Positions 26,264 through 46,929 of a stretch of DNA of 64,000 bases are shown one piece after another. Where the stretch lies: assembly GCA_014191855.1 (NCBI GenBank), contig BJHF01000023.1:1-64000 (forward strand), read 5' to 3'. Position 1 is the stretch's first letter. Every line of letters begins with the position of its first letter. A program made the position numbers and the translations under genes. The notes below the pieces were generated by a model. The model had not been told where the DNA came from. It did no database searches and saw only the letters and a list, made by a program, of their open reading frames with translations. This stretch comes from Deltaproteobacteria bacterium (GTDB lineage Bacteria > Myxococcota_A > UBA796 > SXON01).

Positions 26264-29200
26264 TTGGCGACGCGGCAGGCCAGGCAGGAGGCGAGGCCCC
26301 TCGCTCCGCGTCGCGATCCCACCGCGCGGGCCTCGCTTCCGATAGGGTACGGCATCCAACTCAGGACTGCCGCCACCCTGCCTCCGCTGCTCGACGCGCT
26401 CGCGACGCGCCTGGCGGCGCCGTTGTCTTCACCGTTCGACGTCGAGCACGTCGTCGTTCCCGGCGGGCCGATGCGGGATTGGCTGGCCGCGGAGCTGGCG
26501 GATCGGCTCGGCGTGTGGTGCAACCACGCCGTGTACCCGCCCGCGATGCTGGCCGACCGGCTGGGCGTCCCGCTCCCGGAGCCCCCCTCGGCCTGGGCGG
26601 TGCGCGACGCGCTCGCCGGACGACTCGGTACACCCGGCTTCGAGGCCCCCACCCGCTACCTCGAGGGGGATGCCACCGGCATCCGCGCAATCCAGCTCGC
26701 CACCCGGATCGCCTCCCTGTTCGCCAACTACGCCCGGTTTCGCCCTGAGATGCTCGCGCGCTGGGCCGACGGCTCACACAGCACGAACGACGGGAACGAA
26801 GCCTGGCAGGCCCAACTGTGGCGCGACCTTTTCCAGGGTGCGCTCCACCCGCTGGCCGCGATCAACGCCCACTTCGCGGACCACATCCCCACCCTTCCCA
26901 GGCGCCTGAGCGTCTTCGCAGTTGATCACCTCGCGCCGCTGGAGCTGCACGTGCTGCGCCGGCTCGCCCAACACATCCAAGTCGGCGTATTTGCAATCGC
27001 CACCTCCCCCCTCGCCCAGGCCCTCGCCGCAGACGCTCCCCCCAAGGTGCTGCCTTGCACGCTCCCAACCCCGCGGCTCCTCGTACACGCGACGCACGGG
27101 AAAATGCGTGAGGTGGAGGTGCTCCGCGACGCGCTGCTCACGCTGTTCGCGGGCGACGCGAGCCTGCAACCTGAGGATGTGTTGGTGCTCGCGCCGGACA
27201 TCAACGACTACGCCGCGCTCCTGGACGGGGTGTTTGGCACCCAAGCCGACCTCTCCCGGGCACCGGGGGCCCAGGCCAGGTTTCCCTTGTGTTTCGCGGA
27301 CCGCTCCCCCTTTGTGGACGCGCCGGGACTCGCCGCCATGCGCGCGCTGCTCGCGCTCCCTCACTCGCGACGCCCCTTGTCTCTGGTCAGCGAGCTCTGG
27401 TCCATCGCGCCGGTTCACGCCCGCTTCGGGCTCTCGGAGGAGGATGCTGCGACGGCGCGAGGCTGGCTCGACGAGGCGGCGGTGCGTTGGGCGGAGGACG
27501 CCCCCTTTCGGGAGCGCTTCGCCAACCCCGCGCTGCCCCAACACACCTGGCGCTGGGGGCTCGACCGGCTGCTGCTGGGCTACGCCGTCGAAAGCGACAA
27601 CGCGCGTCTCTTCGACGATCTGCTGCCCATTGATGGCCTCGAAGGCAACAATGCCGCGCCGCTCGGCGGGCTCTGCGCCTTTTGTGACATCCTGTTACAG
27701 CACCTCGCCGTCCTGGAGGGGAACCACACGCCCAGCCAGTGGGCGACGGTGCTGTTGGCATCGTACGATGCGCTCGTATCCACGCGCGGGCCGTGGGCCG
27801 GCTCGCGGCTGACGTTGGTGCACGCGCTCGAGGCGCTCAGCGGCGAGCAGTCGGTCGCGATAGGCGCGGTGTCGGACTGGATCGTCGGCCAGCTTGAGCA
27901 GGTTGAACGGCGGGAAGGATTCTATTCCGGCGGCGTGAACTGCGCGTCGCTCCGCACCGGGCGCGTCATCCCGGCGCGGGTGGTGGCGCTCCTGGGGGTG
28001 GACGACGATCGTTTCCCGCGAGACCCGACGCCGCTCGCTTTCGATCTCATCGCCCAGGACCCCCAGCCGGGCGATCTCCCTGCGCGCATGGAGGATCGCC
28101 TCACGTTCGTGAACGCCTCTCGCGCCGCAATTGACCACCTTCATCTATCGTATATCGGCCACGGTAGCCGCGACAACAAAGCCCGGCCCCCCTCCGTCGT
28201 CGTCGCTGAGCTGCTCGACGCGCTCCCGGTCGCCATCCGGGCCGAGGCCGCCGTTTCCCACCCGATGCAGCCGTTCAGCCGGCTCGCCTTCGTTGATCCT
28301 CGCGTTCCCAACTACTCCAACGCGCATCACCTCGGCGCGCTCGCCCTCCTGTCGCCCCAACGCGAGCCCCCGGCGTTCTTCCCCACGCCTCTGAGCCCGG
28401 ACCCTGCGACGGCCACCGTCGATCTCGCAGTGCTCGTGCGCTTCTTCCAGAACCCCTCCGCCGCGGTGCTCAGCGGTCGCCTGGACCTGCGCTTCGCCGA
28501 GGCGGAGGCGGGTACCGGCGATCGAGAGCCGTTCAACCTAAACTTCCTCGAACAGTGGCAGATCGGGGACGCGTTGGTGAAGGCGGGGCTCGCGGGGATC
28601 GATCCCGAGTCGCTGTGGCCCGCGATGCGGGAATCGGGCTTGTTGCCGATGGGCACGCCGGGTCGGGCCCATTTTGATGCGCTCGCGGCGGCGGCAATGG
28701 GCGTGGTCGAGGCGGCGCAGGATTGCGACGCGGGTGAGGCCCAACCCAACGTCGACCTGAACGTCGAGCTCCCCGGCGCGCGTCTCACCGGCCGCCTGGA
28801 CGGCCGCCGTACCGGTGGCGGCCTCTATGTCAGTTACTCGAAGCTGGACGCCAAACGTCTTTTGCCGGCCTGGATTCGCCACCTCGCGGCGAACGCCGCC
28901 GGGCTCCAACCCGCCGTCACCTGGGCCGTTGGGCGCGCGAAGGGGGGCGGGGAGAGCCACAGTTGGGCAGATGTGCCCGAAGCCGGCCGCTGGCTCCGCC
29001 AATTATTGGCGCTCTACGCCGAGGGGATGACCCGCCCCCTCCCCTTCACGCCCAAGGCTTCGTACGCCTATGCGGTTTCCTACATGACGTCTCAGGCAAC
29101 CGGCACTCCAGAAGCCGACGCTCGGGCGCTCGCCAGCATCGAAGCCCTGAAAGCGTGGGTGTCGATGCGGTTGCCCGGTCAGGACCCCATCCCGGGAGAA

Positions 29201-29329
29201 GGCGAAGATCCCGCCGTGGCCCGTGTGTTCGACCGCTCCGTCTTGTGGTCCGAGGAATTCGGCCGCGTCGCGCTCCGCGTCTACGCCCCGATGCGCGGCC
29301 ACTACGGGCTGCCGGAGTCATTGTCGTGA
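26264..29329 (+). CDS. recC: RecBCD exonuclease V, RecC subunit
   Basis: A protein of about 1021 residues. The N-terminal pattern (LPPLLDALATRLAAPLSSPF, then VEHVVVPGGPMRDWLAAELADRLG) and the segment RVVALLGVDDDRFPRD, with MEDRLTFVNASRAAIDHLHLSYIG, are characteristic of RecC. RecC recognises Chi and splits the duplex within RecBCD. No ATG suits the domain start; the TTG at 26264, 4 nt after the previous stop, is the only plausible start and adds about 35 extra residues, so the exact N-terminus is uncertain. The stop overlaps the recB GTG. Confidence 0.93.
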   Translation: MATRQARQEARPLAPRRDPTARASLPIGYGIQLRTAATLPPLLDALATRLAAPLSSPFDVEHVVVPGGPMRDWLAAELADRLGVWCNHAVYPPAMLADRLGVPLPEPPSAWAVRDALAGRLGTPGFEAPTRYLEGDATGIRAIQLATRIASLFANYARFRPEMLARWADGSHSTNDGNEAWQAQLWRDLFQGALHPLAAINAHFADHIPTLPRRLSVFAVDHLAPLELHVLRRLAQHIQVGVFAIATSPLAQALAADAPPKVLPCTLPTPRLLVHATHGKMREVEVLRDALLTLFAGDASLQPEDVLVLAPDINDYAALLDGVFGTQADLSRAPGAQARFPLCFADRSPFVDAPGLAAMRALLALPHSRRPLSLVSELWSIAPVHARFGLSEEDAATARGWLDEAAVRWAEDAPFRERFANPALPQHTWRWGLDRLLLGYAVESDNARLFDDLLPIDGLEGNNAAPLGGLCAFCDILLQHLAVLEGNHTPSQWATVLLASYDALVSTRGPWAGSRLTLVHALEALSGEQSVAIGAVSDWIVGQLEQVERREGFYSGGVNCASLRTGRVIPARVVALLGVDDDRFPRDPTPLAFDLIAQDPQPGDLPARMEDRLTFVNASRAAIDHLHLSYIGHGSRDNKARPPSVVVAELLDALPVAIRAEAAVSHPMQPFSRLAFVDPRVPNYSNAHHLGALALLSPQREPPAFFPTPLSPDPATATVDLAVLVRFFQNPSAAVLSGRLDLRFAEAEAGTGDREPFNLNFLEQWQIGDALVKAGLAGIDPESLWPAMRESGLLPMGTPGRAHFDALAAAAMGVVEAAQDCDAGEAQPNVDLNVELPGARLTGRLDGRRTGGGLYVSYSKLDAKRLLPAWIRHLAANAAGLQPAVTWAVGRAKGGGESHSWADVPEAGRWLRQLLALYAEGMTRPLPFTPKASYAYAVSYMTSQATGTPEADARALASIEALKAWVSMRLPGQDPIPGEGEDPAVARVFDRSVLWSEEFGRVALRVYAPMRGHYGLPESLS

Positions 29330-32300
29330 CCCCATCCCCGACGTTCAACGCTGCCACCCACTCGCTGCGCGGCACGCACCTCGTGGAGGCCAGCGCCGGT
29401 ACCGGCAAGACCTTCAACATCACGACGTTGGTCGTGCGCCTGCTGGTCGAATCCAACCTCACCATCGACCAGATCCTCGTCGTCAGCTTCGCCAAGGCCT
29501 CGACAGCGGACCTTCGCAGTCGGGTGCGCAGCCGACTCGTGGAGGCCATCGATGCGTTTCAAGCCGGCCAATCTCCAGATGTGGTGCTCGACGTCCTCGC
29601 GCGCAAGGCGCCCCCCGCGGTCGGCTTGGAGCGGCTCCGCGCCGGCCTCCGCGACTTCGACCGGGCCGCGATCTACACCATCCACTCCTTCTGCCAGCGC
29701 GCCCTGGTGGAGTTCGCGTTTGAGTCGGGCGAGCCCTTCGCGTCCGAGTTTGTGGAGGGCGCGGAAGAGCTCTACCTTGAGCTGTGCCAGGACCACTGGG
29801 CCCGGACGGCCTACGCCGCAGATCCAGCGTGGCTCGAAGGCGTCGCTGGCGTCATGTCCACCCCCAAAAGCCTGTTTGACATCGCACGGTACGCATCCGA
29901 GCGGCCCGACCTGCGTGTGCTCCCCAGCTCATCGACCCAGCCCACTCCGGCGCAACTGGCGGCGCTCCGGGTGCGGTTCGAGTCCTGCGCGGCGCTGTGG
30001 CGCTCCGGGGAGGCGACGATCCGCTCCGACCTCGACTACGGGAACGGTCGTCTCAAAGCTGACTATCAGGCCCCCAAGATCGAAGGCCCGCTCGCCGTCC
30101 TCGGGTCGCTGCTCACCGGGGCAACACCCAGCGGGCCGCGCGTGCCGGGCTCGTCCGGGATGTTCACGCTCGCCGCGCTGATGGCGAACGTGAAGGGCAA
30201 GGGACCCGTGAACTTCCACGCGTTCTTCGGCGCGTGGCAAGCATATCTTGAGCTTGCGATTCCGCTGCGGAACGGCGAGCTCATCGAGCTTCAACAGCAG
30301 CTTCACCGAACGGCGCGTACCACCCTGGATGCCCACAAGAACCTCCACAACATCCGCGCCTACTCCGATCTCCTCGTGCGCCTCGCCGACGCGACGCGCG
30401 GTGCGAATGGGCGTGTGCTGGCGGATGCGCTCTTTCGTCGTTACCCGGCCGCGCTAATTGACGAATTCCAGGACACGGACCCCGTGCAGTTTTCGGTGTT
30501 CGAGGCCATGTACCAGGGTGGTCGCGGCGCGCTCTTCCTGATCGGCGATCCCAAACAAGCGATCTATGCGTTCCGTGGGGGTGACATCTACGCCTACCTG
30601 CGAGCGGCCGGGCGCTCCCCGCCGAGCACGCTTGACGTCAACTTTCGCTCCGACCGCGCGCTCGTGGAGGCTCTCGGCTCGCTGTACCCGCGCTCCTCCC
30701 TCCCCTTCGTGGACCCCCGCATCCCCTTCCACGCGGTCACGGCCGCCAAGGGCACGCGGCTGCGCGGCCCGTCCGGGGAGCCCGCCCCACTCCAGCTCCG
30801 CATGCTACGCAAGGAGGGCAAGGGGAAGAACGGCATCACCAACACCTGGGCCGACCGAGCACTGGCCGATCTGGTGGCGGCCGATATGGTCCGTTTTCTT
30901 CGCTCCGACGCCCTGATGCTGCGCGGCACCAAGGCCGACGGCGCGCTCGACTGGTCGCCGCCGCGCGCCTCCGACTGTGCCGTGCTGGTCCGCAAGAACC
31001 TCGACGCCGAGCGAATCCACCGGGCCCTCCGCGCGCTCGGCATCCCCAGCGTCGTTACCTCCGACACCTCGGTGTTCCAGTCCGCGGCGGCCGCCGAGCT
31101 CCACGCGTTGCTCGATGCGATCGTACACGCCAGCTCCGATCGGCGCATCCGGGCGGCCGTCGTGAGCCCGCTCGTGGGTCTGTCGGCGAACCAGCTCGCG
31201 GAGGCCGTGGTGCACGACGCGCGCTGGGCAGAGTGGGCGCTCACCTTTCGGGATCTGCACGAACGCTGGGCAGATCATGGCTTCGCAGCCGTGTTTCGGC
31301 GACTGATGGGGGAGCCGCTCAGCGAGCTCCACGGGGCGGCGGAGCCGCGTCTGCTCGCGGAGCCTGGAGGCGAGCGGAGGGTGACCAACCTGCTCCACCT
31401 GGGCGAGCTGCTGCAGCGTCGCGAAACGTCCCACACCCTCACGCCGGCGGCCCTCCTCTCCTGGTTCAGCCAACGCATCGCCAACGCGGGGGATGCATCC
31501 GATGACGAAGAGGTGCGGCTGGAGAGCGACGCCGATGCCGCGACCATCATGACCGTGTACAAGGCCAAGGGGCTCCAGTTTCCCGTGGTGTGGGTGCCCT
31601 ACGGTCACGTGAACTTCGGCGCGGGTGATACACGGCCGATGTATCACGGAGACCCGCCGGACGAGGCCGCCACGGTGAGCTTTGACCCCGGAGAGTGGGG
31701 GACAAACGCCGTTGTTGCTGAGGTCGAGGCGAAGGCCCAGGAGCGACGCATCCTGTATGTGTCACTCACGCGCGCGGCCCATCGGCTTACGGTCTTTACA
31801 GGCGAATGGCATCGGGGCGGGGACAGCGCGCTGGATGCCCTGCTGCACCCATCTGGCACGCTCGACGAAGACCGCCGCATGGGAGAGCTGGAAGCGCTGG
31901 CGGGCGCGTCGGGGGGAAGAATCGGGGCGAGCTGGTTCGATGAGGCCGTGGAGACGCCGATCCACCTGCCGTCGCCGGACCCCAAGGGCGTCACTGTGGG
32001 CACGTTCGCCGGCCGCGTCCGCACGAGCTGGCGGCGCTCCAGTTATTCCGGGCTCACGCGCGCCAAAGGAGTCGCGGAGGAGGCGCCCGAGGATCATGAC
32101 GAAGCGGTGGACGACGAGGCAGCGGAAGGTCCGCGCGGGGCGCTCGCCCCCGAAGCGCCGGGGACGGCCAGCGCCGACGTCTCGCTGCCGATGGACGCCC
32201 TTCCGTGCGGCTTCGCCGACTTTCCACGCGGGAAGCGCCCCGGCACCACCCTCCACGCGCTCTACGAACACGCGGACTTCCTCGACCTGGGCCCGGCGCT

Positions 32301-32970
32301 CGACGCGATGGTGGCGGAGCGGCTCGCGGCCGAGCGCGTGGACGCGAAGCACGTCGTCCCCGCGACGGCGGGCATTCGAGCCTCCCTCGCCACCGACCTC
32401 GGCGGGAGCCTAACGGGCTTCGCGCTGCACCAGCTTTCCCGGGAGCACCGACTCGATGAGCTGGCATTCACCTTCCCCGTGTCGTCGCGGGGGCCCACGG
32501 CCCCGAGCCTCCGCCAACGCGACCTCGTCAAGTTCTTTGTGACACACGGCGAAGTCAAGTTGGCCGAGCGCGTGGCCGCGTTGACTTTCGGCCGACTACG
32601 GGGGCACCTCCACGGCAAGATCGACCTCGTGTTCGAGCACGGGGGAAAGTTCTATGTTGCGGACTACAAGTCCAACCATCTGGGGCCGACGCTGGGAGAC
32701 TACACGCCGACGCAGATGGCCCGGGCGATGGCGGAGCACAGCTACGACCTGCAATACCTGGTGTATTCGGTGGCGGTGCACCGGTTCCTGACGCTGCGCC
32801 TGCCTGGGTACCAATTTGCCACACACTTCGGCGGCGTTCGCTACCTGTTCATCCGCGGAATGACCCCCGCGACCGGCGCCGCACGCGGAGTATTCGCCGC
32901 CAACCCCGCCGAAGCGCTCGTCGTCGGGCTCTCCGAGCTCTTGCGGTCGCCTCCGGGGAGCGCGTCGTGA
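29326..32970 (+). CDS. recB: RecBCD exonuclease V, RecB helicase-nuclease subunit
   Basis: A 1214-residue UvrD-like 3'-5' helicase with C-terminal nuclease. Walker A is EASAGTGKTF (21-30), Walker B is LIDEFQDTDPVQF, followed by GDPKQAIYAFRGGDIYAYL, and motif VI-like DDEEVRLESDADAATIMTVYKAKGLQFPV is present. The nuclease domain is intact: GKIDLVF and FYVADYKSNHLG give the Asp and DYK metal ligands. GTG 29326 overlaps the recC stop. The frame is open upstream, but only inside recC. Confidence 0.95.
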   Translation: MTPSPTFNAATHSLRGTHLVEASAGTGKTFNITTLVVRLLVESNLTIDQILVVSFAKASTADLRSRVRSRLVEAIDAFQAGQSPDVVLDVLARKAPPAVGLERLRAGLRDFDRAAIYTIHSFCQRALVEFAFESGEPFASEFVEGAEELYLELCQDHWARTAYAADPAWLEGVAGVMSTPKSLFDIARYASERPDLRVLPSSSTQPTPAQLAALRVRFESCAALWRSGEATIRSDLDYGNGRLKADYQAPKIEGPLAVLGSLLTGATPSGPRVPGSSGMFTLAALMANVKGKGPVNFHAFFGAWQAYLELAIPLRNGELIELQQQLHRTARTTLDAHKNLHNIRAYSDLLVRLADATRGANGRVLADALFRRYPAALIDEFQDTDPVQFSVFEAMYQGGRGALFLIGDPKQAIYAFRGGDIYAYLRAAGRSPPSTLDVNFRSDRALVEALGSLYPRSSLPFVDPRIPFHAVTAAKGTRLRGPSGEPAPLQLRMLRKEGKGKNGITNTWADRALADLVAADMVRFLRSDALMLRGTKADGALDWSPPRASDCAVLVRKNLDAERIHRALRALGIPSVVTSDTSVFQSAAAAELHALLDAIVHASSDRRIRAAVVSPLVGLSANQLAEAVVHDARWAEWALTFRDLHERWADHGFAAVFRRLMGEPLSELHGAAEPRLLAEPGGERRVTNLLHLGELLQRRETSHTLTPAALLSWFSQRIANAGDASDDEEVRLESDADAATIMTVYKAKGLQFPVVWVPYGHVNFGAGDTRPMYHGDPPDEAATVSFDPGEWGTNAVVAEVEAKAQERRILYVSLTRAAHRLTVFTGEWHRGGDSALDALLHPSGTLDEDRRMGELEALAGASGGRIGASWFDEAVETPIHLPSPDPKGVTVGTFAGRVRTSWRRSSYSGLTRAKGVAEEAPEDHDEAVDDEAAEGPRGALAPEAPGTASADVSLPMDALPCGFADFPRGKRPGTTLHALYEHADFLDLGPALDAMVAERLAAERVDAKHVVPATAGIRASLATDLGGSLTGFALHQLSREHRLDELAFTFPVSSRGPTAPSLRQRDLVKFFVTHGEVKLAERVAALTFGRLRGHLHGKIDLVFEHGGKFYVADYKSNHLGPTLGDYTPTQMARAMAEHSYDLQYLVYSVAVHRFLTLRLPGYQFATHFGGVRYLFIRGMTPATGAARGVFAANPAEALVVGLSELLRSPPGSAS

Positions 32971-34886
32971 GCCTCACAATCGAAGCCCTGTTGGAGGCCG
33001 GCCGGATCAGCTCGTTAGACGTGGCGTTCGCCGACTTCGTGTCCCGGCACGGCGGAACCCGCGCCGATCCCCTGGTGGCGCTGGCGGCCGCCGCGGTGAG
33101 CAATCACACAGCGATGGGGCATGTATGCCTGCCACTGGCGACGATTGCCGGAACGGCGGTCTTGGATGAAGCTGGAGAAGACGACGGGGCAGACGCGACC
33201 GAGGAAACCAGCGCCCTCGCTGGCGTGTGTTGGCCCCCAGGGGAGGTGTGGCTGGCGGCCCTGCGCGACAGTCGTTGCGTCAGCGACGGCAACACGCTGA
33301 CCCCGCTGGTGCTCGACACGACCGGGCGCCTCTATCTCCATCGTTATTGGGAGCACGAGCAGCGTGTGACCGGCTGGCTGAACGACCGAGTTTCGGAGCC
33401 GCCAACGCCGCTGGACGAGCCCTGGTTCGCGAGCGCCATCGGGCGGCTGTTTCCTCCAGAGGCCGGTTCCAACGGGGCGAACGCGAGCACCCCCGACCCG
33501 GACTGGCGCAAGCTCGCGGCGTTGCTCGTGCTCACGCGGCGCTTCACGGTCATCTCCGGAGGGCCCGGCACCGGAAAAACCACCGCCGTCATCCGGCTGC
33601 TCGCGCTGATGCTGGAGCAGGCCGAAATCACCAAGCGTCGCCTTCGGATCGCGCTGGTGGCCCCGACCGGAAAGGCGGCGGCGCGTCTACAAGAAGCGGT
33701 TGATCGGCAGCGGCCCGGAGTGGACACCACCCCCGCCGCCCGAGCTGCGCTCCCCACCGAGGCCACCACCATCCACCGGCGGCTCGGCGCGTATGGGACG
33801 GGCTTCAAATACGGGGCGGACAACCCCATCCCCTACGACGTGGTGGTGGTGGACGAGGCCTCCATGGTGGACCTGGTGCTGCTTTCGCGGCTCCTCGCGG
33901 CGCTCGAGCCCGGCGCGCGGCTCGTTCTCCTCGGCGACCACAACCAGCTCGCCAGCGTGCAGGCGGGCGCCGTGCTTGGCGATCTGTGTCGGAGCGCTGC
34001 GGCGCAAGGGTACTCGCCCACGCTGGCGGCCCAATTCGGACGGCTCACCGGCGCACCGCTCTCCGGCGAGGGTGTGGTGCTCGCCGAGAAAGCCGTCGCT
34101 CGCCCGGGGGGCACGGGGCTGGGCGGCACGGGCCTCGGCGACGCGGTCGTTCACCTCCGCACCAATTTCCGCTTCGACGCCCAGAGCGGGATCGGGGCGC
34201 TCGCCCGCGCCACTGTAGTCGGCGACGTCGCCGGAGTGATCCGGATCTTGAAAGGCGGAGGAGCGGGGTCGCTGCGCTGGTTGGTTCCCGGCAAGGAGTC
34301 TACGGAAGCGCTCGTGTGTCGTGAATCCCTCGGCGGGTATGCGAACTACCTCGGAGCGGCGGATATTTCGGCTGCATACCCCGAGTTCCTCACGTTCCGC
34401 GTGCTCTGCGCCCATCGCCGGGGCGAAGCCGGCGTGGAGACGCTCAATCCCGCCATCGAGGCGCGCCTCGCCGCGGCCGGGCTCATCAAGCCCCGCGCCG
34501 AGTGGTACAGAGGCCGCCCCGTGATGGTCACCCAAAACGACGCCGCGCTCCGCCTCTACAATGGGGACGTCGGCCTCGCCTGGCCCGACGCCGCCGGCGT
34601 GCTACTGGTGCACTTCCCCGACGGCAAGGGCGGGTTCCGCACCTTCCAACCGACGCGCCTCCCCGCCCACGAAACGGTGTACGCGATGACCGTCCACAAA
34701 AGCCAGGGCTCCGAATTCGGTCGGGTGGTGCTCGTGCTTCCCGAGGAGTCATCGCCCGTGTTGACGCGGGAGCTCGTATACACGGGGGTTACGCGCGCGG
34801 TGAGCGGGGTGACGGTGATCGGGGCGGAGAATGTTTTGCGAGCGGGGGTGGAGGCGAGGGTGGCAAGGGAGAGTGGGGTGGGGTGA
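32967..34886 (+). CDS. recD: RecBCD exonuclease V, RecD helicase subunit
   Basis: A 639-residue 5'-3' SF1 helicase. Walker A is SGGPGTGKTTA (197-207), Walker B is VVVDEASMVDL, and motif VI segments MTVHKSQGSEF and VYTGVTRA are present. GTG 32967 overlaps the recB stop by 4 nt. The order recC-recB-recD without ptrA resembles operons outside the enterobacteria. The three genes together suggest a working RecBCD for break repair and foreign-DNA degradation. Confidence 0.94.
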   Translation: MSLTIEALLEAGRISSLDVAFADFVSRHGGTRADPLVALAAAAVSNHTAMGHVCLPLATIAGTAVLDEAGEDDGADATEETSALAGVCWPPGEVWLAALRDSRCVSDGNTLTPLVLDTTGRLYLHRYWEHEQRVTGWLNDRVSEPPTPLDEPWFASAIGRLFPPEAGSNGANASTPDPDWRKLAALLVLTRRFTVISGGPGTGKTTAVIRLLALMLEQAEITKRRLRIALVAPTGKAAARLQEAVDRQRPGVDTTPAARAALPTEATTIHRRLGAYGTGFKYGADNPIPYDVVVVDEASMVDLVLLSRLLAALEPGARLVLLGDHNQLASVQAGAVLGDLCRSAAAQGYSPTLAAQFGRLTGAPLSGEGVVLAEKAVARPGGTGLGGTGLGDAVVHLRTNFRFDAQSGIGALARATVVGDVAGVIRILKGGGAGSLRWLVPGKESTEALVCRESLGGYANYLGAADISAAYPEFLTFRVLCAHRRGEAGVETLNPAIEARLAAAGLIKPRAEWYRGRPVMVTQNDAALRLYNGDVGLAWPDAAGVLLVHFPDGKGGFRTFQPTRLPAHETVYAMTVHKSQGSEFGRVVLVLPEESSPVLTRELVYTGVTRAVSGVTVIGAENVLRAGVEARVARESGVG

Positions 34887-37869: not shown

Positions 37870-38015
37870 CCCCTCAAGGCTAAGCCGGTGCCCGCCCGTG
37901 CGGCGCCGCGATGCCTCGAAACCAAACCCGCGAGGAAGGGATCGGGCCTGCGGCATCGCCCCTTTTGCCTCCTCTCCATTGCCTCCGCCCGTTTGGTGCC
38001 TACCCTCCCCGCCCC

Positions 38016-38807
38016 ATGAGAATTATCTCCTTCAATGCGGCCCCCGTGGCGGCGCTCGCGTACCGCAACTCCAAACCCGGAGGCGGCGGCACGTTCGTCG
38101 CCAGCCTTCCGGTGTTCAACGCGACCGTGGATTTTCTGCCCGCAGGTCTGGATGCGGTCGTGCTCACAAGCGATCTCCAGGGCCGCGAGCTTTCGGGTCC
38201 GCGGCTGGTCGGTGAGGCCCTGGCGCCGTGGCTCGTGTCGGAGGGCATCGTCTCTCGCCCGGATCACACGATTGTTCTCCTTGCCGGCGATCTCTACGCC
38301 TCCCCCCGCGCCGACGAGCGTGGATCGACTGGGGATGTTCGCACCGTGTGGCGAGCTTTCGCGAACACGTTCGGCGCTGTGGCGGGCGTCGCGGGCAACC
38401 ACGATCTCTTCGGCGATCAAACGATGGAAGCCTTCGCCAAATCGGAGGCGGTCCACCTGCTGGATGGGGCCTGCGCCACCCTGCGCGGGCTGCGCGTGGG
38501 CGGGGTGAGCGGGATCGTCGGAAAAACCACGAAGCCCAACCGCAAGGACGACGAGACGTTCATCCGACTGCTGGAGGATGTGCTCCTCGACACGCCGGAC
38601 GTCGTGGTGCTCCACCAGGGGCCAGACGGCGCAAGTCCCCGTGACAAAGGCAGCGCAAGTGTGCGCGCCACGCTCACCGCCGTGGAGGCGCCGCCGATCG
38701 TGGTGTTTGGGCACTGCCATTGGGAGGCCCCGTTTCTCGAGGAAGGTCGTAGCCAGCTCGTGAACGTCGATGGCCGGGTGGTCGTCTTGCGCGCGGGGAG
38801 CGCTTAA
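38016..38807 (+). CDS. Calcineurin-like metallophosphoesterase
   Basis: A 263-residue cytosolic protein. The dimetal site motifs are in order: LTSDLQG (first Asp, weak DxH), LLAGDLY (GD), GVAGNHDLFGD (GNHD) and VVFGHCHWE (GHxH). The first motif reads SDLQ instead of DxH, so one metal ligand may be Gln or absent. VLHQGPDG carries a further likely ligand His. The ATG at 38016 starts the conserved fold. It diverges from the HEAT gene (146-nt gap) and converges on the vWA gene with a 4-nt overlap. Substrate unknown. Confidence 0.8.
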   Translation: MRIISFNAAPVAALAYRNSKPGGGGTFVASLPVFNATVDFLPAGLDAVVLTSDLQGRELSGPRLVGEALAPWLVSEGIVSRPDHTIVLLAGDLYASPRADERGSTGDVRTVWRAFANTFGAVAGVAGNHDLFGDQTMEAFAKSEAVHLLDGACATLRGLRVGGVSGIVGKTTKPNRKDDETFIRLLEDVLLDTPDVVVLHQGPDGASPRDKGSASVRATLTAVEAPPIVVFGHCHWEAPFLEEGRSQLVNVDGRVVVLRAGSA

Positions 38808-40267
38808 AACGGAATATCATCTCCCCCGAAGAAAGGGCCGCCCATGATCTCCGGGGGCACCTCCACCACGGTAGCGCGGAGGGCGGCCGCGGAATGGCAC
38901 ACCCGAATTCCGCTGGTCAACAGCATCACGATCTGCATCCCACGGGCCTTTCGCGCGAGGGGCGGCGGCACGTCGAATTCGCCGTCGGTGAGCCACAAAA
39001 GCCGACGTTTTCCGTACTTACGGGCGTGGTCGATCACGCACTCGATGTCGGTACCATGGCGGGTTCGAAGCCGACCCTCGCGCGCCTCGGGCTCGGTGAG
39101 CGGGTAAACCTCTGTGGAGAATTGCCAGGCGGGGCGCACCAACTGCGGGCCGAGCGCAGCGACGAGGCCGAAGTACACGGCCTGAAATGCGGCGGTGGAC
39201 CCCGAAACGTCGACAAAGAGGTGAACGCCACTCTGCCCCTCGCCCGCGACGAGCTGATTCGGGTTCCATAACGGCGGGAGCACGCCGGCAGCCAGCGACA
39301 TCACGTCCCGACGGCCCACCCCGGGAATCACGCCGGGGGTCGGGCGCCAACCCAGGCCCTCGGGACCATCCGCCTCGCCGACCACCAGGGCGCGGTTCAC
39401 AGCCCGAAAGAAAGCGACGCGGGCCGCGGTTGTGGCGCGGCGACACCCAACCCGGGCCACATCCTCCTCTCCAGCGCCTCCAGGGTCCGGCGCGACTAGC
39501 CCCTCGCCGCCGCGTCCAGCCGCCTCGTGATCCCCGAGGAACCGCACCTCCTCAAGCGCGCCCGGGCAATGGCGCAGCTCGGGCAGCACCAGCGCCCGGA
39601 AGTTCACCCAGTAGGCCGTAGGCTCCATCACCTCCAGCCAGCCCCGCAGGTAGAGCCGTGCGATCGCTCCCGCCTTCCGCACGCCCAACGCCGTGAAGTG
39701 TCGGGTGAAGACCCGCTCCAGTCGCCTGGTTGTCGCGCGCCCGCGGGTCCACCCCACTGCAATGTCACGATGCCCCCCGAAATTGAAGCGCGCTTCGTCG
39801 TCCTGCGAGCGGAGCGCCGCCAACACATCGTGCGGCGGGACGAGCATGCACGATGGGAACCGATCCCAGGCGTTCACCTCACGAAAGAGCGGGCAGGCGT
39901 CGGGAACCCAAGTGCGGAGCAGGGTGGCGTTCACCAACACATCGAGCGCGACGTTGAGCAGGCTCCGCTCCACCTCGCAGCGGGGGACAGTGAGCCCAAA
40001 GTGGCCCCGCCGCGCATGCAACAGCTCATGCCCGACCAATGCCAGCGCCGCCGTGTCGTCGCGAACATAGCGGACACAGAAGTCGGGGTTGAGCAGGATC
40101 TCGTACCCCGTCGCCGTTCGACGGATCGCGGCCGTGTCCACGCTCGTGGAAGGCAACACCGGGATGGCCGACAGCGCCTGCAGCAGGAGCCCCAGCGACC
40201 CTTCCGGCACGAGGTCGTCGTTCGCGAGCCCTCGAACGGCCGCCTGGATCACCGCCTCCGCCTTCAT
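38804..40267 (-). CDS. DUF2201-type putative metallopeptidase fused to vWA-like domain
   Basis: A 487-residue protein. The N-terminal half has a zincin-like helix LVGHELLHARRGHF (HELLH at 80-84, a full HExxH), matching the DUF2201 N-terminal metallopeptidase domain. The C-terminal half has a vWA fold with MIDAS motif FVDVSGST (353-357 DVSGS), then LLWLTDGEFD. Neighbours in this family pair with MoxR AAA+ ATPases, as here. The start overlaps the middle gene's stop by 4 nt. I infer an ATPase-driven complex in which this is the effector or adaptor subunit. Peptidase activity is inferred from HExxH only. Confidence 0.85.
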   Translation of the reverse strand: MKAEAVIQAAVRGLANDDLVPEGSLGLLLQALSAIPVLPSTSVDTAAIRRTATGYEILLNPDFCVRYVRDDTAALALVGHELLHARRGHFGLTVPRCEVERSLLNVALDVLVNATLLRTWVPDACPLFREVNAWDRFPSCMLVPPHDVLAALRSQDDEARFNFGGHRDIAVGWTRGRATTRRLERVFTRHFTALGVRKAGAIARLYLRGWLEVMEPTAYWVNFRALVLPELRHCPGALEEVRFLGDHEAAGRGGEGLVAPDPGGAGEEDVARVGCRRATTAARVAFFRAVNRALVVGEADGPEGLGWRPTPGVIPGVGRRDVMSLAAGVLPPLWNPNQLVAGEGQSGVHLFVDVSGSTAAFQAVYFGLVAALGPQLVRPAWQFSTEVYPLTEPEAREGRLRTRHGTDIECVIDHARKYGKRRLLWLTDGEFDVPPPLARKARGMQIVMLLTSGIRVCHSAAALRATVVEVPPEIMGGPFFGGDDIPF

Positions 40268-41307
40268 GAATAGCCCAGCGGCACGGTGCCGATCCGCCAT
40301 TGTCCACCCTGGGGGAGCACAACGTCTCGCAGATCGGCCGGCTGTGTGTGCGGCACATAGTTGAGACCGGCCCCGACCCGGGCGAGCACCGCCATCGCGG
40401 CACCGGGATCGACGATGAGCGGCACATCGAGCGGCGTGCCCTCCGCGTCGTGCAACGCGACCGGCGCTCGAGAGTCGAGGATGAAGCCCGCACGACGCGC
40501 GCAATCGGGCGGAGCTCCCACCTTGCGACCGAGCCGCGAAACCTCTCCAGCCGTCGGCACGCGGAGCAGGAAGGCGGGCGCCAGGTCGGCGATCGGGGCG
40601 ACCTGCCGATCCGACAGCGCGCAGGGAACCCCCGCCCGATCGAGCCGTGCACGCAACGCCGGGGGCAACGAGTCAAGCTGCTCGGACACCCCGAACCGCA
40701 CCCCGTCGAACCACGGGGTTCCAGCGTCGTGCCCATGCAACACCACGAAGCGCTCCCGGGGGATCCGGTGTTTTCCCACCTGCATGGTTTCGGAGACCAC
40801 CCACAGCCGGGTGCCGAGGCCATCCTGCACCAACCACCGCGAGCTTGCATCCAGCCGGGTGGAGAACCCCTCCGGCTCCGCGCTCTCGCCCAGAACCACG
40901 CCCAGCGCCGCGTGGTTTCCCCCCGCTCGACTGTCGCGACGGCGACGCCGGCTCGGCCGGCCCCAGGTGGGGATCTCGTACGCCAGCGCGTCGATACGCT
41001 CGCCAAGCAACTGCAGGTTACCCGCCAGGATCGGCGCGAGCGCGGTGTCGGGCTCCGCGGCATAGTGTTCGTGCACGAACGCCACGAGCGCCGAGGTGCG
41101 CCTCGCGACGATGAACCCCTTGAACCGATGCACCCCTGTGGGCGTGCGCAGGGCATGCGAAACCGCCCGCAGCGGCCCCTCCCCCGGCTCCCAAGCCACG
41201 AAAGTGCCGGTGATCACCTCATCCGGCGTGGCCCGGTAGGAGGCGAGCTCCCAGGCTTCGGCGTCCACACCCGAACGAAGCAGACGAAAAGCAGGGACGA
41301 CGTTCAT
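40264..41307 (-). CDS. Unknown middle protein of a MoxR/vWA operon
   Basis: A 347-residue protein of no recognised family. It has no signal peptide or membrane helix. A basic cluster (RPSRRRRRDSRAGG, about 118-131) could bind nucleic acid or be a flexible linker; the remaining sequence is mixed alpha/beta with motifs such as RFVVLHGHDAGTPWFDGVRFG. The start has a strong ribosome site (ggagga) 5 nt upstream that lies within the end of the ATPase gene. Overlap by 4 nt at both ends makes it an obligate middle member. In other ternary MoxR/vWA systems the third component is often lineage-specific. Confidence 0.7.
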   Translation of the reverse strand: MNVVPAFRLLRSGVDAEAWELASYRATPDEVITGTFVAWEPGEGPLRAVSHALRTPTGVHRFKGFIVARRTSALVAFVHEHYAAEPDTALAPILAGNLQLLGERIDALAYEIPTWGRPSRRRRRDSRAGGNHAALGVVLGESAEPEGFSTRLDASSRWLVQDGLGTRLWVVSETMQVGKHRIPRERFVVLHGHDAGTPWFDGVRFGVSEQLDSLPPALRARLDRAGVPCALSDRQVAPIADLAPAFLLRVPTAGEVSRLGRKVGAPPDCARRAGFILDSRAPVALHDAEGTPLDVPLIVDPGAAMAVLARVGAGLNYVPHTQPADLRDVVLPQGGQWRIGTVPLGYS

Positions 41308-42746
41308 GAATTCCTCCGATTGAGCGCAACGCGGAAGTTGGGGAGCGCGAGCTGGGCAAACGCGGCGTCTACACAACCGTCTTCGTGTCCTGGCCGCGGG
41401 CGGGAAGATTCAAGGGCGAGCCGCACCGCCAACGCTTCCTCGGGACGGGCCAGGGTGGCCGCCGATACCCGGGCGACGATCCCACCAAATTCGTCTGCCG
41501 TTTGGCGGGTGAGGCCGGTGTTCCTTGCGTACCAGGCCAGCAGCCTCGCCACGATCTCCGCGGGGAAGGCCTCGGGGTGCCGCGACACGACCTCCACGAG
41601 CGCCACGACGTCGCTGAACGCGCGCACCCGGCGCTCCAACGGGGCGTGCAGCGCGGCGTCGATGAACCGGGCCACCACACGATCGTGTTCGTGTTCATCA
41701 AGCCCGGCGGACAAGCGCAGCCACTCCGCAGCCGCGAGCCGCGCGCTCCGCTCAGCGAGGATCGCTTCGAGGCCCACGTGGGCGGCATCGCCCGTCGTCG
41801 CCAGCCAGGCGCGCTCGTGTGCGCAGAGCAGTTGCAAAGCATCCACCTCCGCGCCCACCACCGCGAACGGCAGGGATGCGAGGAGGGTGGACCGGTAGAG
41901 GCCCTCCACATCGTCTGCCGGGCGCCCGAGTACCCGGGCGGCCGCCGCGCCAGAAATAAGGTTGCGCCTGAGCATCGACATCCGACGCCCATCCAACGGT
42001 GCCTCCTCGGGCATCGCGATCGCGAGCTGCTGGATGTAGCGGGTTGCGGAGACGTCGTGCTCACGCAGCGCAACCTGCAGCCCGCTCCGGGTGCGCTCCA
42101 CGAGATCGGCCAGACCGGAATTCTCAATATCTACGGCGCCTTCGTGCAGGGCGGCCGCGAGCGGCGCATCCTCCAACCCCGTGGTCCGCACCACCTGCGC
42201 CACGTCCGCCGCGCTCATCTCCCCCGCCTCCGGGACGGCGACGATCCACGCAAATCGCCCCGCCAGCGCCGCATCGAGGGCCTGCGCGCCCAGGTAGGTG
42301 AGCGGGTTCATGGCGGCCCACACGTGCTGCAGCCCGGGGATCGGCGCGCCCATGGCCCGACGGGCGCGCACCACCTCCAGCCATTTGTTCTGCATCTGCG
42401 GGCTGGCGCGAGAGAGCTCGTCTACCAGTACGAACTCCCGATCCCAGATGGAGAGCGGCGTGTGCACATAGCGGAGCTTCCCCTCCGCAAGCGAGGTGGG
42501 GTCGGGGAACCCGATCACATCCTCGAAGAGGGCCTTGCCCGCATCATAGGCGTGAAAACGCAGGTTCATCGCCCCCGCCACCGCGCGACACAGCGCGCTC
42601 TTCGCCGACCCGTGGCCCCCTACGAGCAGCAGCGGATCGCCCGTGGCCAGCGCGGCGAGCACGGGCACCTCCAACTCCTCCATGCCCGCAAATCCCAGCG
42701 CCGCCAGCACCCCCGACGCACCGATCCGGCTGCCTCCGTTCGCCAT
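41304..42746 (-). CDS. MoxR-family AAA+ ATPase (RavA-like)
   Basis: A 480-residue ATPase. Walker A is VGGHGSAKSAL (GGHGSAKS at 43-50), Walker B FVLVDE (105-110) is followed by SRASPQMQNKWLEVV, sensor I is VWAAMNP, and ALDAALAGRFAWIVAVP carries the Arg finger region. MoxR ATPases act as chaperones that activate partners, commonly vWA proteins. A gggagagg site precedes ATG 42746. It is the first gene of a three-gene operon and diverges from two WYL regulator genes. The C-terminal 200 residues are helical and specific to this subgroup. Confidence 0.9.
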   Translation of the reverse strand: MANGGSRIGASGVLAALGFAGMEELEVPVLAALATGDPLLLVGGHGSAKSALCRAVAGAMNLRFHAYDAGKALFEDVIGFPDPTSLAEGKLRYVHTPLSIWDREFVLVDELSRASPQMQNKWLEVVRARRAMGAPIPGLQHVWAAMNPLTYLGAQALDAALAGRFAWIVAVPEAGEMSAADVAQVVRTTGLEDAPLAAALHEGAVDIENSGLADLVERTRSGLQVALREHDVSATRYIQQLAIAMPEEAPLDGRRMSMLRRNLISGAAAARVLGRPADDVEGLYRSTLLASLPFAVVGAEVDALQLLCAHERAWLATTGDAAHVGLEAILAERSARLAAAEWLRLSAGLDEHEHDRVVARFIDAALHAPLERRVRAFSDVVALVEVVSRHPEAFPAEIVARLLAWYARNTGLTRQTADEFGGIVARVSAATLARPEEALAVRLALESSRPRPGHEDGCVDAAFAQLALPNFRVALNRRNS

Positions 42747-42760
42747 GCTCCACCTCTCCC

Positions 42761-42789
42761 TTGAACATGCCCCGGGGGTGTGACATTCT
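42761..42789 (+). promoter_or_regulatory. Possible promoter between the MoxR and WYL genes
   Basis: TTGAAC at 42761-42766, a 17-nt spacer and CATTCT at 42784-42789 fit a sigma70-type promoter. The predicted transcript would begin near 42796, so the GTG at 42797 would be read from a leaderless message. The only 50-nt gap between divergent operons also contains ccccgggg, a potential operator for the WYL proteins. Not verified. Confidence 0.3.
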
Positions 42790-42796
42790 CGGTTCA

Positions 42797-43768
42797 GTGC
42801 GCGCCGCCGAACGACAATTTTCTCTGCTCTCGCTCGTATGCTCTCGCCGTGCGATCTCGTTCGCCGAGATTCGCGAGGTGATGCCGGAGGCCTACGATGG
42901 TGACCCCGCAAGCGCCCGTCGAAAGTTCGAGCGCGACAAGCGAGACCTCCACCAGCTCGGCCTTACGCTAGCCTATGACGCAGCGCGCAACCTGTATGCG
43001 CCGCCGGTCGACTCGCTGCGACGGCGCCGCCTCCAGCTCTCGGGCGCCGAGGCCGCGATCTGCCGCCTCGCTCTCGCGCTCGCCGCCGCCGATCCGCGCT
43101 CCCCGCTTCAGGCCGACGCCGCCGGCTGCCTTGCGCGCCTTGCCCGAGCCATCGCGCCTGGCCCGGCGGCCCCGCCCCCGCCGGTGCATCTCCATCATCC
43201 CACCCGGGACGTTGAGCCCGACCTTCCGGACCAGCTCAGGCGGCTTGGAACGGCGATACGGCGACGACTGCCCGTGCGGTTCACGTACCGTCGGGAGGGG
43301 GGCGGCCCTCGCCGGGCCCGGGAGGTGGAGCCGTGGGGGTTGTACGCGCGGCAGGGGCGTTGGTACGTCGTGGGCTGGGACAAGGGGCGGGTGGCCCAGC
43401 GAACCTTCCGAATCGTGCGTATGCGGCAGCTTCAGGTGGAGGGGCTCCCGGACGGCGCGCCGCGGTTCGAACGCGACCCGGCATTCGACCTCGCCGCCAC
43501 GGCCGCGCGGCCGCCGTGGGACTGGAACGTCCACGCGCCCGTGGAAGCGGTGCTCCGAGTCGGGGCGGAGGTCGCCGACTCCGTGGTGCGCGGGCTCGGC
43601 GGCGACGCCCGGTACGAGGGCGGCGTGGTTCGGCGCACGGTCACCAACGCGAACGCACTGCTGGTGTTCGCGGTGGAGCGCCTGCCGCGGGTGCACCCCA
43701 TCGCGCCGGCGCCACTGGCCGAACACTGGGAATCACGACTGAAGCGGATCGCGGAGCGCCACCCGTGA
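42797..43768 (+). CDS. WYL-domain transcriptional regulator, PafB-like
   Basis: A 323-residue protein. A winged helix lies at the N-terminus (about 1-62, AERQFSLLSLVCSRRAI, then DKRDLHQLGLTLAYD). A WYL domain covers about 150-235, centred on GRWYVVGWDKGRVAQRTFRIVRM, and a C-terminal extension is rich in VLRVG-type strands. WYL domains bind ligands such as nucleic acids, and WYL regulators often control defence or stress operons. GTG 42797 starts at the conserved VRAAERQ; TTG 42761 and ATG 42767 are alternatives that would lie inside the promoter region. Overlaps the second WYL gene by 4 nt. Confidence 0.85.
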   Translation: MRAAERQFSLLSLVCSRRAISFAEIREVMPEAYDGDPASARRKFERDKRDLHQLGLTLAYDAARNLYAPPVDSLRRRRLQLSGAEAAICRLALALAAADPRSPLQADAAGCLARLARAIAPGPAAPPPPVHLHHPTRDVEPDLPDQLRRLGTAIRRRLPVRFTYRREGGGPRRAREVEPWGLYARQGRWYVVGWDKGRVAQRTFRIVRMRQLQVEGLPDGAPRFERDPAFDLAATAARPPWDWNVHAPVEAVLRVGAEVADSVVRGLGGDARYEGGVVRRTVTNANALLVFAVERLPRVHPIAPAPLAEHWESRLKRIAERHP

Positions 43769-44754
43769 AGGCGGTGCCTGTAGAGCGCCTGCTGGCCCTG
43801 CTTGGGGCCGCCCAGGATGGCCGCGGCCGCGTGCCCGTCGCCCTCGCTGCGACGTTGCTCGGTGTGCGCGCGGACGACCTCCCTGGCGTCGTGGAGGCGC
43901 TCTGTACGATCGAGATCCCGCCGCACGGCGATTGCCTGGACCTCGCGTTGGACGGGGATGATGTCGTATTCGACGGGTTGCCCTCCGTCGCGTCGTCGGC
44001 ACCGCTCACCCTCCTGGATGGCGCGCTCTTGTTGACCTCCCTCAACACGTTGCGGCGGAAGTCGGGGCGGCGCGTGGCCCACCTCTGCAACGAATCAGCC
44101 AAGCGCGTGAAGCATGGGCTCGGGGAGCCCTCAGGGAGCGAGGCTGAAACCCGCTCCGAGGCCCTTGCATGGGCCGTAGACGACGATGCGGGAGCGGCAG
44201 AAACGCTGTCGTTGCTTCAGGAAGCTGCGGAGTCGCGCCGAGTGGTGCGCTTACGATATTGGAATGTGAGCCGCGATTCGGTGGAGGAGCGGCGCGTGCG
44301 GCCCGTGGACCTCTGTCAGCACACCGGCCGGTGGTACCTCGGGGCCACCGATCTCGGTCGCGACGCGCATAGGTGGTTTCGCCTGGAGCGCATCCTCGCC
44401 GTGACCGTAACCGAGGACACGTTCGCGGCGGAATCCCCGCGGTCCGCGGCGCGCGATGTGCTCTTCGACCCACCCGCCGTGCCGGTGGAGCTGGTCGTTC
44501 GTTTCGAAAGCGGCTGGATCCGGCAGGCCCGTGCGCAGCTGGACGACGCATGGGTGGGGCGATCGGCGGCCGGGGTGAGGCTACGGGGGCCGACGATAGA
44601 AACACTTGTTCGTCGGCTGTTCGCCCTTGATGGCGGCTGGGAGATCGTGGAGCCGGAGGCCGCCCGCGCGATGGTGCGGGCCTGGGCTGGGGGGCCAACT
44701 TCTGGCCCCCGGGAGGGGGCGGCGCCGCCCGCTGAAGGAAGCAGGCAACGCTGA
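43765..44754 (+). CDS. WYL-domain transcriptional regulator, PafC-like
   Basis: A 329-residue protein. The N-terminus (RLLALLGAAQDGR, then ATLLGVRADDLPGVVEALC) is a winged helix of PafC type. LDLALDGDDVVFDGLPSVAS and LTLLDGALLLTSLNTLRRKSG match PafC central elements. The WYL domain contains TGRWYLGATDLGRDAHRWFRLERI (RWYL at 189-192). Adjacent and coupled to the first WYL gene, as pafB and pafC are in actinobacteria, where the heterodimer activates DNA-damage genes. GTG 43765 is inside the preceding stop. Confidence 0.85.
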   Translation: MKAVPVERLLALLGAAQDGRGRVPVALAATLLGVRADDLPGVVEALCTIEIPPHGDCLDLALDGDDVVFDGLPSVASSAPLTLLDGALLLTSLNTLRRKSGRRVAHLCNESAKRVKHGLGEPSGSEAETRSEALAWAVDDDAGAAETLSLLQEAAESRRVVRLRYWNVSRDSVEERRVRPVDLCQHTGRWYLGATDLGRDAHRWFRLERILAVTVTEDTFAAESPRSAARDVLFDPPAVPVELVVRFESGWIRQARAQLDDAWVGRSAAGVRLRGPTIETLVRRLFALDGGWEIVEPEAARAMVRAWAGGPTSGPREGAAPPAEGSRQR

Positions 44755-45771: not shown

Positions 45772-46929
45772 ATGCAATTCGATCTTGTGTTCGAGGGCGG
45801 TGGCGCAAAGGGCGCGGTATTTGTGGGAGCCCTCCAGGAATTCGAAGCCCGTGGATACAAGCCCTGCCGCCTGGTGGGCACGTCGGCGGGCGCCATCACC
45901 GCCGCGCTCGTGGCCGCCGGGGCCACGGCTGACTGGCTCCACGCGGCGCTGTGCGAGCGCGATGCGGCTGGCAAGTCGGTGTTCGCTTCCTTCGCCGATG
46001 TTGCCAGCACCTTCGAGGCTGCAGACGTAAAAAGTAGCGCAATCGCCGAGATGTTGGAGCGGATCGATCTGCCTCTGGTCCCGAACCGCTGGGAGTCGGC
46101 AATGGACCAGGCGCTTCTCGACGGGCTGCTCAACTTCCGTGCCTTCCGCATGTTGTTCTCAATCCTGGAGAAAGGCGGAGTGTACGAGGGCGGCGCGTTC
46201 GTGGCCTGGATGATGTCGAAGCTCGACGCCCTGGACCAGCGGGGCCCCGCGCGGGAGGATCCTGGGCTCGGCGTCGCGACACTTCAGCGCTTCTATGACG
46301 AAGTGGGCGCCGATCTCTCCATCCTTGCCTCCGACGTGGATGCGCAGGAGCTGCTGGTGTTCAACCACCGCACCGCTCCGAACCTGCCGGTGGCCTGGGC
46401 CGTGCGGATGTCGATGAGCATCCCGATGGTGTGGCAGGAGGTGAAGTGGCGCGAAGAATGGGGCTTGTACCGGGGGAGGAACATCACGGGGCACACCATT
46501 GTAGATGGGGGGGTGCTGTCCAACTTCCCGATTGATCTGATTACGTCCGGGATCGCAGAGGTCGCGGAGATCATGGGCGACACCGACCCGTTGGCCGTCG
46601 CGAATCTCGGCTTCCTCATCGACGAGGACCTGCCGGTTCCAGGGGTGCCCGCAAAGGCAGGAGAGTCCGGCCTCGTCGAATCGATCGCGCACAGCCGCGT
46701 CGTGTTGCAGATCTCCAAGCTGATGGACACGATGATGAACGCCCGCGACCGCCTCGTGATCGAGCGGTGCATGAAAAGCCATGAGGTGTGCCGACTTCCG
46801 GCCAAGGGCTACACCGCCACAGAGTTCGAGATGTCGGCTGAGCGCATGGTGGCGCTGGTGAGCGCGGGGCGGGCGGCGGCGTTTGCTTACTTCGAGGAGC
46901 GCACGGCGTTGGAGGCGGGGAAGGGTTGA
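45772..46929 (+). CDS. Patatin-like phospholipase
   Basis: A 385-residue serine hydrolase. The oxyanion motif FEGGGAKGA (9-14 GGGAKG), nucleophile motif GTSAG (Ser38) and catalytic DGG (Asp245 in TIVDGGVLSNFP) are all present, so the Ser-Asp dyad is intact. No signal peptide, so cytosolic or exported by another route. Longer than the minimal patatin fold; residues 80-160 form an insertion. It follows the copper monooxygenase lipoprotein gene closely on the same strand. Likely hydrolyses acyl esters of lipids; specificity unknown. Confidence 0.92.
   Translation: MQFDLVFEGGGAKGAVFVGALQEFEARGYKPCRLVGTSAGAITAALVAAGATADWLHAALCERDAAGKSVFASFADVASTFEAADVKSSAIAEMLERIDLPLVPNRWESAMDQALLDGLLNFRAFRMLFSILEKGGVYEGGAFVAWMMSKLDALDQRGPAREDPGLGVATLQRFYDEVGADLSILASDVDAQELLVFNHRTAPNLPVAWAVRMSMSIPMVWQEVKWREEWGLYRGRNITGHTIVDGGVLSNFPIDLITSGIAEVAEIMGDTDPLAVANLGFLIDEDLPVPGVPAKAGESGLVESIAHSRVVLQISKLMDTMMNARDRLVIERCMKSHEVCRLPAKGYTATEFEMSAERMVALVSAGRAAAFAYFEERTALEAGKG

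Follow-up and report, generated by a model that had tools for sequence, protein, structure and literature searches.

We found that three genes on the minus strand of a 64,000-nucleotide stretch from a Deltaproteobacteria bacterium (contig BJHF01000023.1; the whole stretch is called the window below) form a conserved, co-inherited unit. The cassette, at 42746-38804, encodes in this order a MoxR-type AAA+ ATPase, a middle protein outside known families and a protein in which an HExxH domain is fused to a von Willebrand factor A (vWA) domain. Our best reading is a MoxR-vWA system with a new third component, differing from the four classes set out in the accessible text of Kaur et al. 2020 (PMC7159879). 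As to function, we judge at a little short of an even chance that the cassette is an accessory MoxR-vWA ternary machine linked to defence or DNA stress, in which a metalloprotease is predicted to be built in and the third component is new. The reading builds on the co-inheritance of the genes, on intact ATPase, HExxH and metal ion-dependent adhesion site (MIDAS) motifs, on an accessory spread, on defence, CRISPR and RecBCD/AddAB-like neighbours at some loci, and on an optional WYL regulator. The function would follow from linkage, motifs and gene context, against which stand the unevenness of that context and poor structure models.

A conserved and co-inherited three-gene unit

In the window, the MoxR gene (41304..42746, 480 amino acids), the middle gene (40264..41307, 347 amino acids) and the HExxH-vWA gene (38804..40267, 487 amino acids) overlap by 4 nt at both junctions, MoxR/middle and middle/vWA, through ATGA, just as a sequence-only reading of this DNA had described. 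Homologues of the middle protein were accepted at 14 loci of the sampled genomes: the window, G031, G260, G040, G377, G378, G083 (three loci), G090, G110, G126 and G380 (two loci). The order MoxR-middle-vWA was found across the 14 loci in genomes whose labels include Myxococcota, Elusimicrobia, Planctomycetota and Oligoflexia (G377 is labelled Elusimicrobia, G378 Myxococcota and G380 Planctomycetota). Because the same gene order recurs in 14 loci, the arrangement is not due to chance. Weak matches (G026, G037, G019, G372, G020, G040:C41 and G109) were left out before counting, being partial or weak, some with stops or in very long frames; no MoxR or vWA gene was seen in the gene list of the G109 contig.

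A middle gene regularly found without the others, which the sequence-only reading had named as evidence against a system, was not seen. MoxR lies immediately upstream of the middle gene in 14 of 14 loci, though in G031 and G110 it is partial, at a contig end. Three of the loci (G377, G378 and the first of the two in G380) had entered through a MoxR search, and 11 of the 14 thus test the MoxR link independently. The HExxH-vWA gene follows the middle gene in 12 of 14 loci. The two loci without a full vWA gene are G260, which is cut by the contig end, and G377 (L037), where a short open stretch runs up to the contig end.

The divergence of the three proteins is also correlated. Pairwise identities at 10 loci correlate with Mantel r of 0.91 for MoxR-middle, 0.96 for MoxR-vWA and 0.93 for middle-vWA (permutation p<0.001), and over 9 loci, without one near-duplicate, r is 0.85, 0.92 and 0.87, respectively. 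In G083 the three-gene block is present twice (L060 6204-10165 and L062 6060-10012), as 3967 bp of 87.9% identity in different surroundings, each copy near a different AddAB-like gene set. The block begins about 60 bp upstream of MoxR, ends at the vWA stop and holds no WYL gene. No further matches between the two G083 stretches were found beyond it, L060 being readable for about 280 bp farther before its frame runs into N. Since the block covers these genes alone, the three genes without WYL look like the unit of inheritance.

The distribution of the cassette is accessory. A five-member profile at E 1e-3 matched 9 of the 377 sampled genomes of the phylum; with G109 rejected, 8 of 377 remain, its own genome included. 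Accepted loci occur in 4 of 71 genomes of the class, none of the 10 other same-genus genomes has a match, and G083 and G380 carry more than one copy.

Two Elusimicrobia-labelled stretches end early. L037 (9409-10934) has MoxR and the middle gene, then a stub where the vWA gene is expected, near the contig end; the MoxR relative of L041 (1559-3201) is followed by a frame, possibly that of a vWA gene, which starts where the contig ends.

Motifs of the three proteins and their relation to known systems

The window MoxR has Walker A (GGHGSAKS) and Walker B (DE) motifs and scores above the Pfam cut-offs for AAA_3 and AAA_5 and below that for bpMoxR. Residues G43, K49, D109, E110, N147 and R164 are invariant across an alignment of 12 MoxRs; we take N147 to be sensor-1 and R164 the arginine finger. 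When a 12-member MoxR profile was compared with solved structures, it matched 2r44 (E 1e-13), RavA (E 2e-9) and also midasin, and this agrees with the RavA-like MoxR ATPase first proposed. The RavA match spans profile positions 29-205 only; the C-terminal region of RavA is LARA.

The middle protein, described from the start as uncharacterised, proved to be so in every collection searched. Nothing in Pfam or NCBIfam matched the window protein to E 0.1, nor did anything in PADLOC to E 1; a 12-member profile had no match among PDB sequences to E 1, and a single-sequence pattern scan of genome contigs gave none. It is the least conserved of the three, with a mean identity of 0.27 as compared with 0.38 for MoxR and 0.34 for vWA (10 loci), and carries a C-terminal motif, DPxxAxAVLxR...YVP.

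The vWA protein has HELLH at residues 80-84 (H80, E81 and H84) followed by N105 and D109, and the motifs DVSGS/GTD/TDG in its vWA domain (D353-S355-S357, T406 and D428); the roles of HELLH, of N-x-x-x-D and of DVSGS/GTD/TDG as a MIDAS are assumed here. An alignment of 14 vWA proteins, 10 of them type A and 4 type B, with two partial sequences included, shows H80, E81, H84, N105 and D109 without exception. The HELLH and MIDAS motifs of the proposed DUF2201-type fusion are intact; DUF2201_N scores 14.1 bits against a cut-off of 23.2 in the window protein. VWA_CoxE is likewise below its cut-off (17.4 against 26.4 bits), and DUF2201 reached 20.9 of 26.4 bits in one vWA protein.

According to the accessible text of Kaur et al. 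2020 (PMC7159879), MoxR-vWA ternary systems fall into four classes, whose third component is VMAP, iSTAND, FtsH or a beta-propeller; peptidases are fused to vWA in about 9% of systems, a metallopeptidase rarely. The cassette resembles these conflict-linked systems in combining a MoxR-clade AAA+ ATPase with intact Walker motifs, a vWA protein with the MIDAS aspartates and a fast-evolving third component, which is conserved and paired with MoxR in all loci. Its P-loop is of the AKS/AKT type, close to the GXXXTAKS noted in that text for the FtsH and beta-propeller classes. However, the third component here has no match in Pfam, a collection that includes at least one model from Kaur et al. 2020, bpMoxR, and an N-terminal HExxH domain is present in every vWA protein aligned. 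No beta-propeller, FtsH or iSTAND domain was found: a single-sequence Pfam search with the window middle protein, a fast-evolving one, gave no VMAP, iSTAND, FtsH or TPR/beta-propeller match to E 0.1. In iSTAND systems vWA is fused to variable peptidases, as far as the accessible part of PMC12839542 goes; the aligned vWA members keep one HExxH-vWA architecture and do not show the variable effector domains of ternary conflict systems. WYL is named in the accessible text of PMC7159879 only within a reference title.

The cassette also recalls the DUF2201 (PF13203/PF09967) metallopeptidase-vWA proteins with MoxR, in which HExxH and N-x-x-x-D precede vWA and MoxR lies upstream (L035). HExxH with the downstream N-x-x-x-D is found in all the aligned proteins, yet none of the vWA proteins scanned exceeds the Pfam cut-off for DUF2201_N or DUF2201, and the cassette has an extra gene between MoxR and vWA. 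A MoxR motor and a vWA partner are shared with the RavA-ViaA, NorQ-NorD and CoxD-CoxE chaperones; in contrast to these, the vWA partner here bears an HExxH domain, a middle protein is added and no constant client enzyme was seen beside the cassette. We found no description of the MoxR / middle / HExxH-vWA set in a literature search that left most subscription papers outside, in keeping with the earlier view that the set is not a described system. vWA-MoxR-VMAP and other vWA systems occur near CRISPR loci in the accessible part of PMC10910872, and a relative may stand unnamed within its tables.

Regulators, neighbours and alternative explanations

Two plus-strand WYL regulator genes diverge from the cassette: WYL1 (42767..43768, in the PafB-like position, with an alternative start GTG at 42797) and the PafC-like WYL2 (43765..44754), which overlaps WYL1 by 4 nt (GTGA). 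The divergent intergenic region (42747..42796) measures 20 or 50 bp depending on the start codon chosen; the 50-bp gap reported earlier holds with GTG 42797 and shrinks to 20 bp with ATG 42767. A palindromic WYL operator between the divergent genes was rejected, no inverted repeat of 7 bp or more being found in 42700-42830. Both WYL domains are above the Pfam cut-off. The claim of a coupled PafB/PafC-type pair stands as to the two domains and the overlap, but HTH_PafC scores only 16.6 bits in the window against a cut-off of 32; it exceeds the cut-off in the homologous pairs L096 and L097 (62.2 and 38.5).

A WYL gene stands beside MoxR in 3 of 7 loci, as a divergent pair in the window, a divergent single gene in L061 and a co-directional single gene in L038. 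None was seen upstream of MoxR in L062, L063, L008 and L037 (open reading frame (ORF) lists and partial Pfam scans, and PADLOC except for L037). Homologues of window WYL1 were found at E 1e-10 in 4 of 70 other genomes of the class, and the two closest also belong to WYL pairs, L097 and, at a contig end, L096. In L097 (2484-9411), probably a further defence module under WYL control, a PafBC-like WYL pair with an integrase gene upstream precedes a GmrSD/DUF4268 protein and an SMC-like ATPase. Because WYL is present in 3 of 7 loci, the G083 block lacks it and a homologous pair precedes the GmrSD module, the WYL pair is not part of the unit; it is an optional, swappable regulator outside the three genes. 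The five-gene set proposed at first is thus conserved in its three cassette genes (12 of 14 loci) and separable in its WYL pair, which does occur without the others. A swappable regulator is in line with BrxR relatives, which co-localise with many defence systems (accessible text of PMC9122601), and with PafBC, a heterodimeric DNA-damage regulator (accessible text of PMC5656591). As with PafBC and BrxR/CapW, winged-helix-turn-helix-WYL proteins adjoin a defence-like operon here; those are regulators only, and here they accompany 3 of the 7 loci examined.

Neighbouring genes that do not belong to the cassette include RecC-RecB-RecD (26264..34886, plus strand), which end 3.9 kb from it, and a calcineurin-like phosphoesterase (37911..38807, plus strand), convergent with the vWA gene and overlapping its stop. 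Window RecB and RecD score above the NCBIfam cut-offs, and RecC just below (555.5 against 582.9). In G083, two copies have AddAB-like genes, with Pfam UvrD and PD-(D/E)XK domains above cut-off, at distances of about 2.5 kb and about 6 kb, and RecBCD/AddAB-like genes are thus near 3 cassette copies, the window's included. The two G083 AddA proteins are only about 38% identical over short segments and the AddB proteins do not match each other, so the AddAB-like sets were not duplicated along with the cassette. Since a genome usually has one to a few RecBCD/AddAB-type operons, their adjacency in two distant genomes is notable, though in a small sample.

Defence genes are found near some copies. 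In G090 a CRISPR array and a Cas4-Cas1 fusion border the cassette and its divergent WYL gene at one end; at the other comes a module that comprises a CRISPR-associated primase-polymerase, another Cas1 and another array (the second of each), and a reverse transcriptase. A type I-G Cas3 is found to one side, Cmr3 together with a Cas6/RAMP-like protein to the opposite side; this CRISPR locus on contig 25 corresponds to L061 1-16001 with L069 and L070. The three G083 copies differ in their neighbours: AbiEi/AbiEii, with a nucleotidyltransferase and an XRE-M78 gene, lie near one, PIN and a type ISP enzyme near another, and a NERD-UvrD helicase near the third (L060). Clear defence genes thus occur at 3 of 9 flanked loci (L061, L062 and L063).

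In the simplest working model, the ATPase would govern access to, or the conformation of, the predicted protease, and the middle protein would serve as a sensor or adaptor. MoxR hexamers would remodel the HExxH-vWA protein at the expense of ATP, and the vWA MIDAS may grip a peptide of a partner or substrate. In the accessible text of Kaur et al. 2020 (PMC7159879), established MoxR-vWA pairs use ATP to remodel a protein gripped by the vWA domain. The fast-changing middle protein might be what links a signal from an invader or a DNA break to the ATPase, the HExxH domain, which is DUF2201-like, could be a built-in effector that cleaves a target, and the WYL proteins may sense products of nucleic-acid damage and set the expression level. 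Complex formation, proteolysis, trigger and target are all predicted here. If the model is true, this would be a MoxR-vWA ternary class with a built-in protease effector and a third protein outside known families, and it would connect regulated proteolysis with WYL control, CRISPR adaptation and RecBCD/AddAB in a way that can be tested. Genomes have been the basis for predicting MoxR-vWA conflict systems, and a compact three-gene version with a recognisable ATPase, metal-binding site and peptide-binding site would be a convenient test case.

Several results weigh against a defence-associated protease machine. No defence genes were identified in the flanks of G110, G126, G260, G378 and the window (partial Pfam scan, some flanks short), so that the proposed link to defence is seen at some copies and not at these 5 of 9 flanked loci. 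Three of the four loci with defence genes or the helicase are in one genome, G083, and a WYL gene is seen at 3 of 7 loci. In 60 flank proteins of 9 loci (23,185 residues), 183 PADLOC models were matched at E 1e-8, as compared with 37 in 97 control proteins (46,051 residues). The control consisted of 10 stretches picked by coordinate in six cassette-carrying genomes, one of which gave no proteins; five others were left out. Among the 25 flank models listed of the 183, 24 are Cas1 and one is WYL, chiefly from one CRISPR locus, and the contrast is therefore largely driven by that locus. Those listed for the control (25 of 37) are mostly PD-T4-6, presumably a kinase, each with two members. The AddA/AddB matches of G083 are below the NCBIfam equivalog cut-offs, and DUF2201_N stays below its cut-off in 6 of 6 further vWA proteins scanned (16-19 bits). 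AlphaFold2 (AF2) models of the vWA protein and of the middle protein (5 sequences) have a predicted local distance difference test score (pLDDT) of 55 and 41, respectively, and a Foldseek search gave no PDB match below E 0.33, with integrin A-domains among the best. The MoxR relative L041 is in a genome without a middle-protein match, on a contig that ends soon after. No relative was found in viral contigs, or in plasmids and phages with one MoxR as query.

The most serious competitor is a chaperone for cofactor insertion or complex assembly like NorQ/NorD, CoxD/CoxE or RavA/ViaA, in which the pair would mature a dedicated client enzyme and HExxH would be structural or metal-binding only. We consider it unlikely, although most studied MoxR-vWA pairs act in assembly or metal insertion according to the accessible text of Kaur et al. 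2020 (PMC7159879), and the MoxR here matches RavA: no constant client enzyme lies beside the cassette in the loci read, the HExxH residues and the downstream Asp are invariant throughout the alignment, and the distribution is sporadic. The proximity of RecBCD in the window, of two clearly different AddAB-like sets in G083 and of Cas4-Cas1, CRISPR primase-polymerase, Cas1 and reverse transcriptase in G090 would suit a dedicated regulator of DNA-end machines, which assembles, licenses or turns over RecBCD/AddAB and Cas1-type adaptation complexes while the WYL proteins sense single-stranded DNA (ssDNA). This is less probable still, as no RecBCD/AddAB was identified in the flanks of G090, G110, G126, G260, G378 and the third G083 copy (ORF lists, partly scanned, several short) and the order and orientation of the neighbours vary between loci. 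That the cassette is an ordinary housekeeping MoxR/DUF2201 pair with a lineage-specific extra gene, its island positions being incidental, is the least credible of the alternatives. Such DUF2201-like pairs without a third gene do exist in the same order (L035), but absence from all the other same-genus genomes and rarity in the phylum and class already strain this explanation, as do the duplicated block and the multiple copies in G083 and G380. Returning to the defence- or DNA-stress-associated machine, a bolder form, to which we assign little likelihood, would make it a fifth MoxR-vWA ternary immunity class: a metalloprotease gated by ATP, with a sensor or adaptor that evolves rapidly, would be turned on by WYL proteins as sensors of ssDNA damage and would act on DNA-end machines (RecBCD/AddAB, or Cas4-Cas1 with primase-polymerase) or on phage inhibitors of these, and so turn broken foreign DNA into regulated proteolysis.

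A second variant and the variable region

A second variant consists of MoxR, a small middle protein of about 150-170 amino acids and HExxH-vWA, followed by a relative of S-adenosylmethionine synthetase (MetK). It occurs in the same genome on contig C120 (L030 4960-9156), and also in L031, L042, L043 and L034, and in G004. In each of the five loci in which the stretch is visible, the vWA gene has the MetK-like gene after it, confirmed by Pfam in two (L030 and L042) and recognised by eye in three; L034 shows the vWA-MetK half, and L033 is cut before the MetK position. No MetK gene was seen beside type A cassettes. Homology between the type A middle protein and the small one was not accepted: hhalign with the largest profile gave a probability of 8% and E 0.0043, only a suggestion, and the sole alignment, without significance, falls on the common C-terminal AVLxR motif.

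Window DNA has matches in same-genus genomes as far as about 23.75 kb and then from about 47.1 kb onwards. The variable region between (23750-47100) holds RecBCD, a HEAT-repeat protein, the phosphoesterase, the cassette and a patatin, and adjoins tRNA-Gln (47605-47679). Few matches are listed inside it: G010 has RecBCD fragments, G001 the HEAT gene and G007 the phosphoesterase, a copper-monooxygenase-like gene is in at least 5 genomes, and there are short pieces near 34.5-34.8 kb. The idea of a clean island with an empty site was rejected, since G009 and G006 have the flanking conserved blocks on separate contigs; we therefore speak of a variable region and not of a proven single insertion. 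The patatin-like phospholipase gene (45772-46926), 1 kb past the WYL pair, has no match in any of the 10 other genomes of the genus. Beside the variable region lies an ordinary pair, a separate CoxE-like vWA and an AAA ATPase (48309-51451), with a DNA match in 10 of 10 of these genomes.

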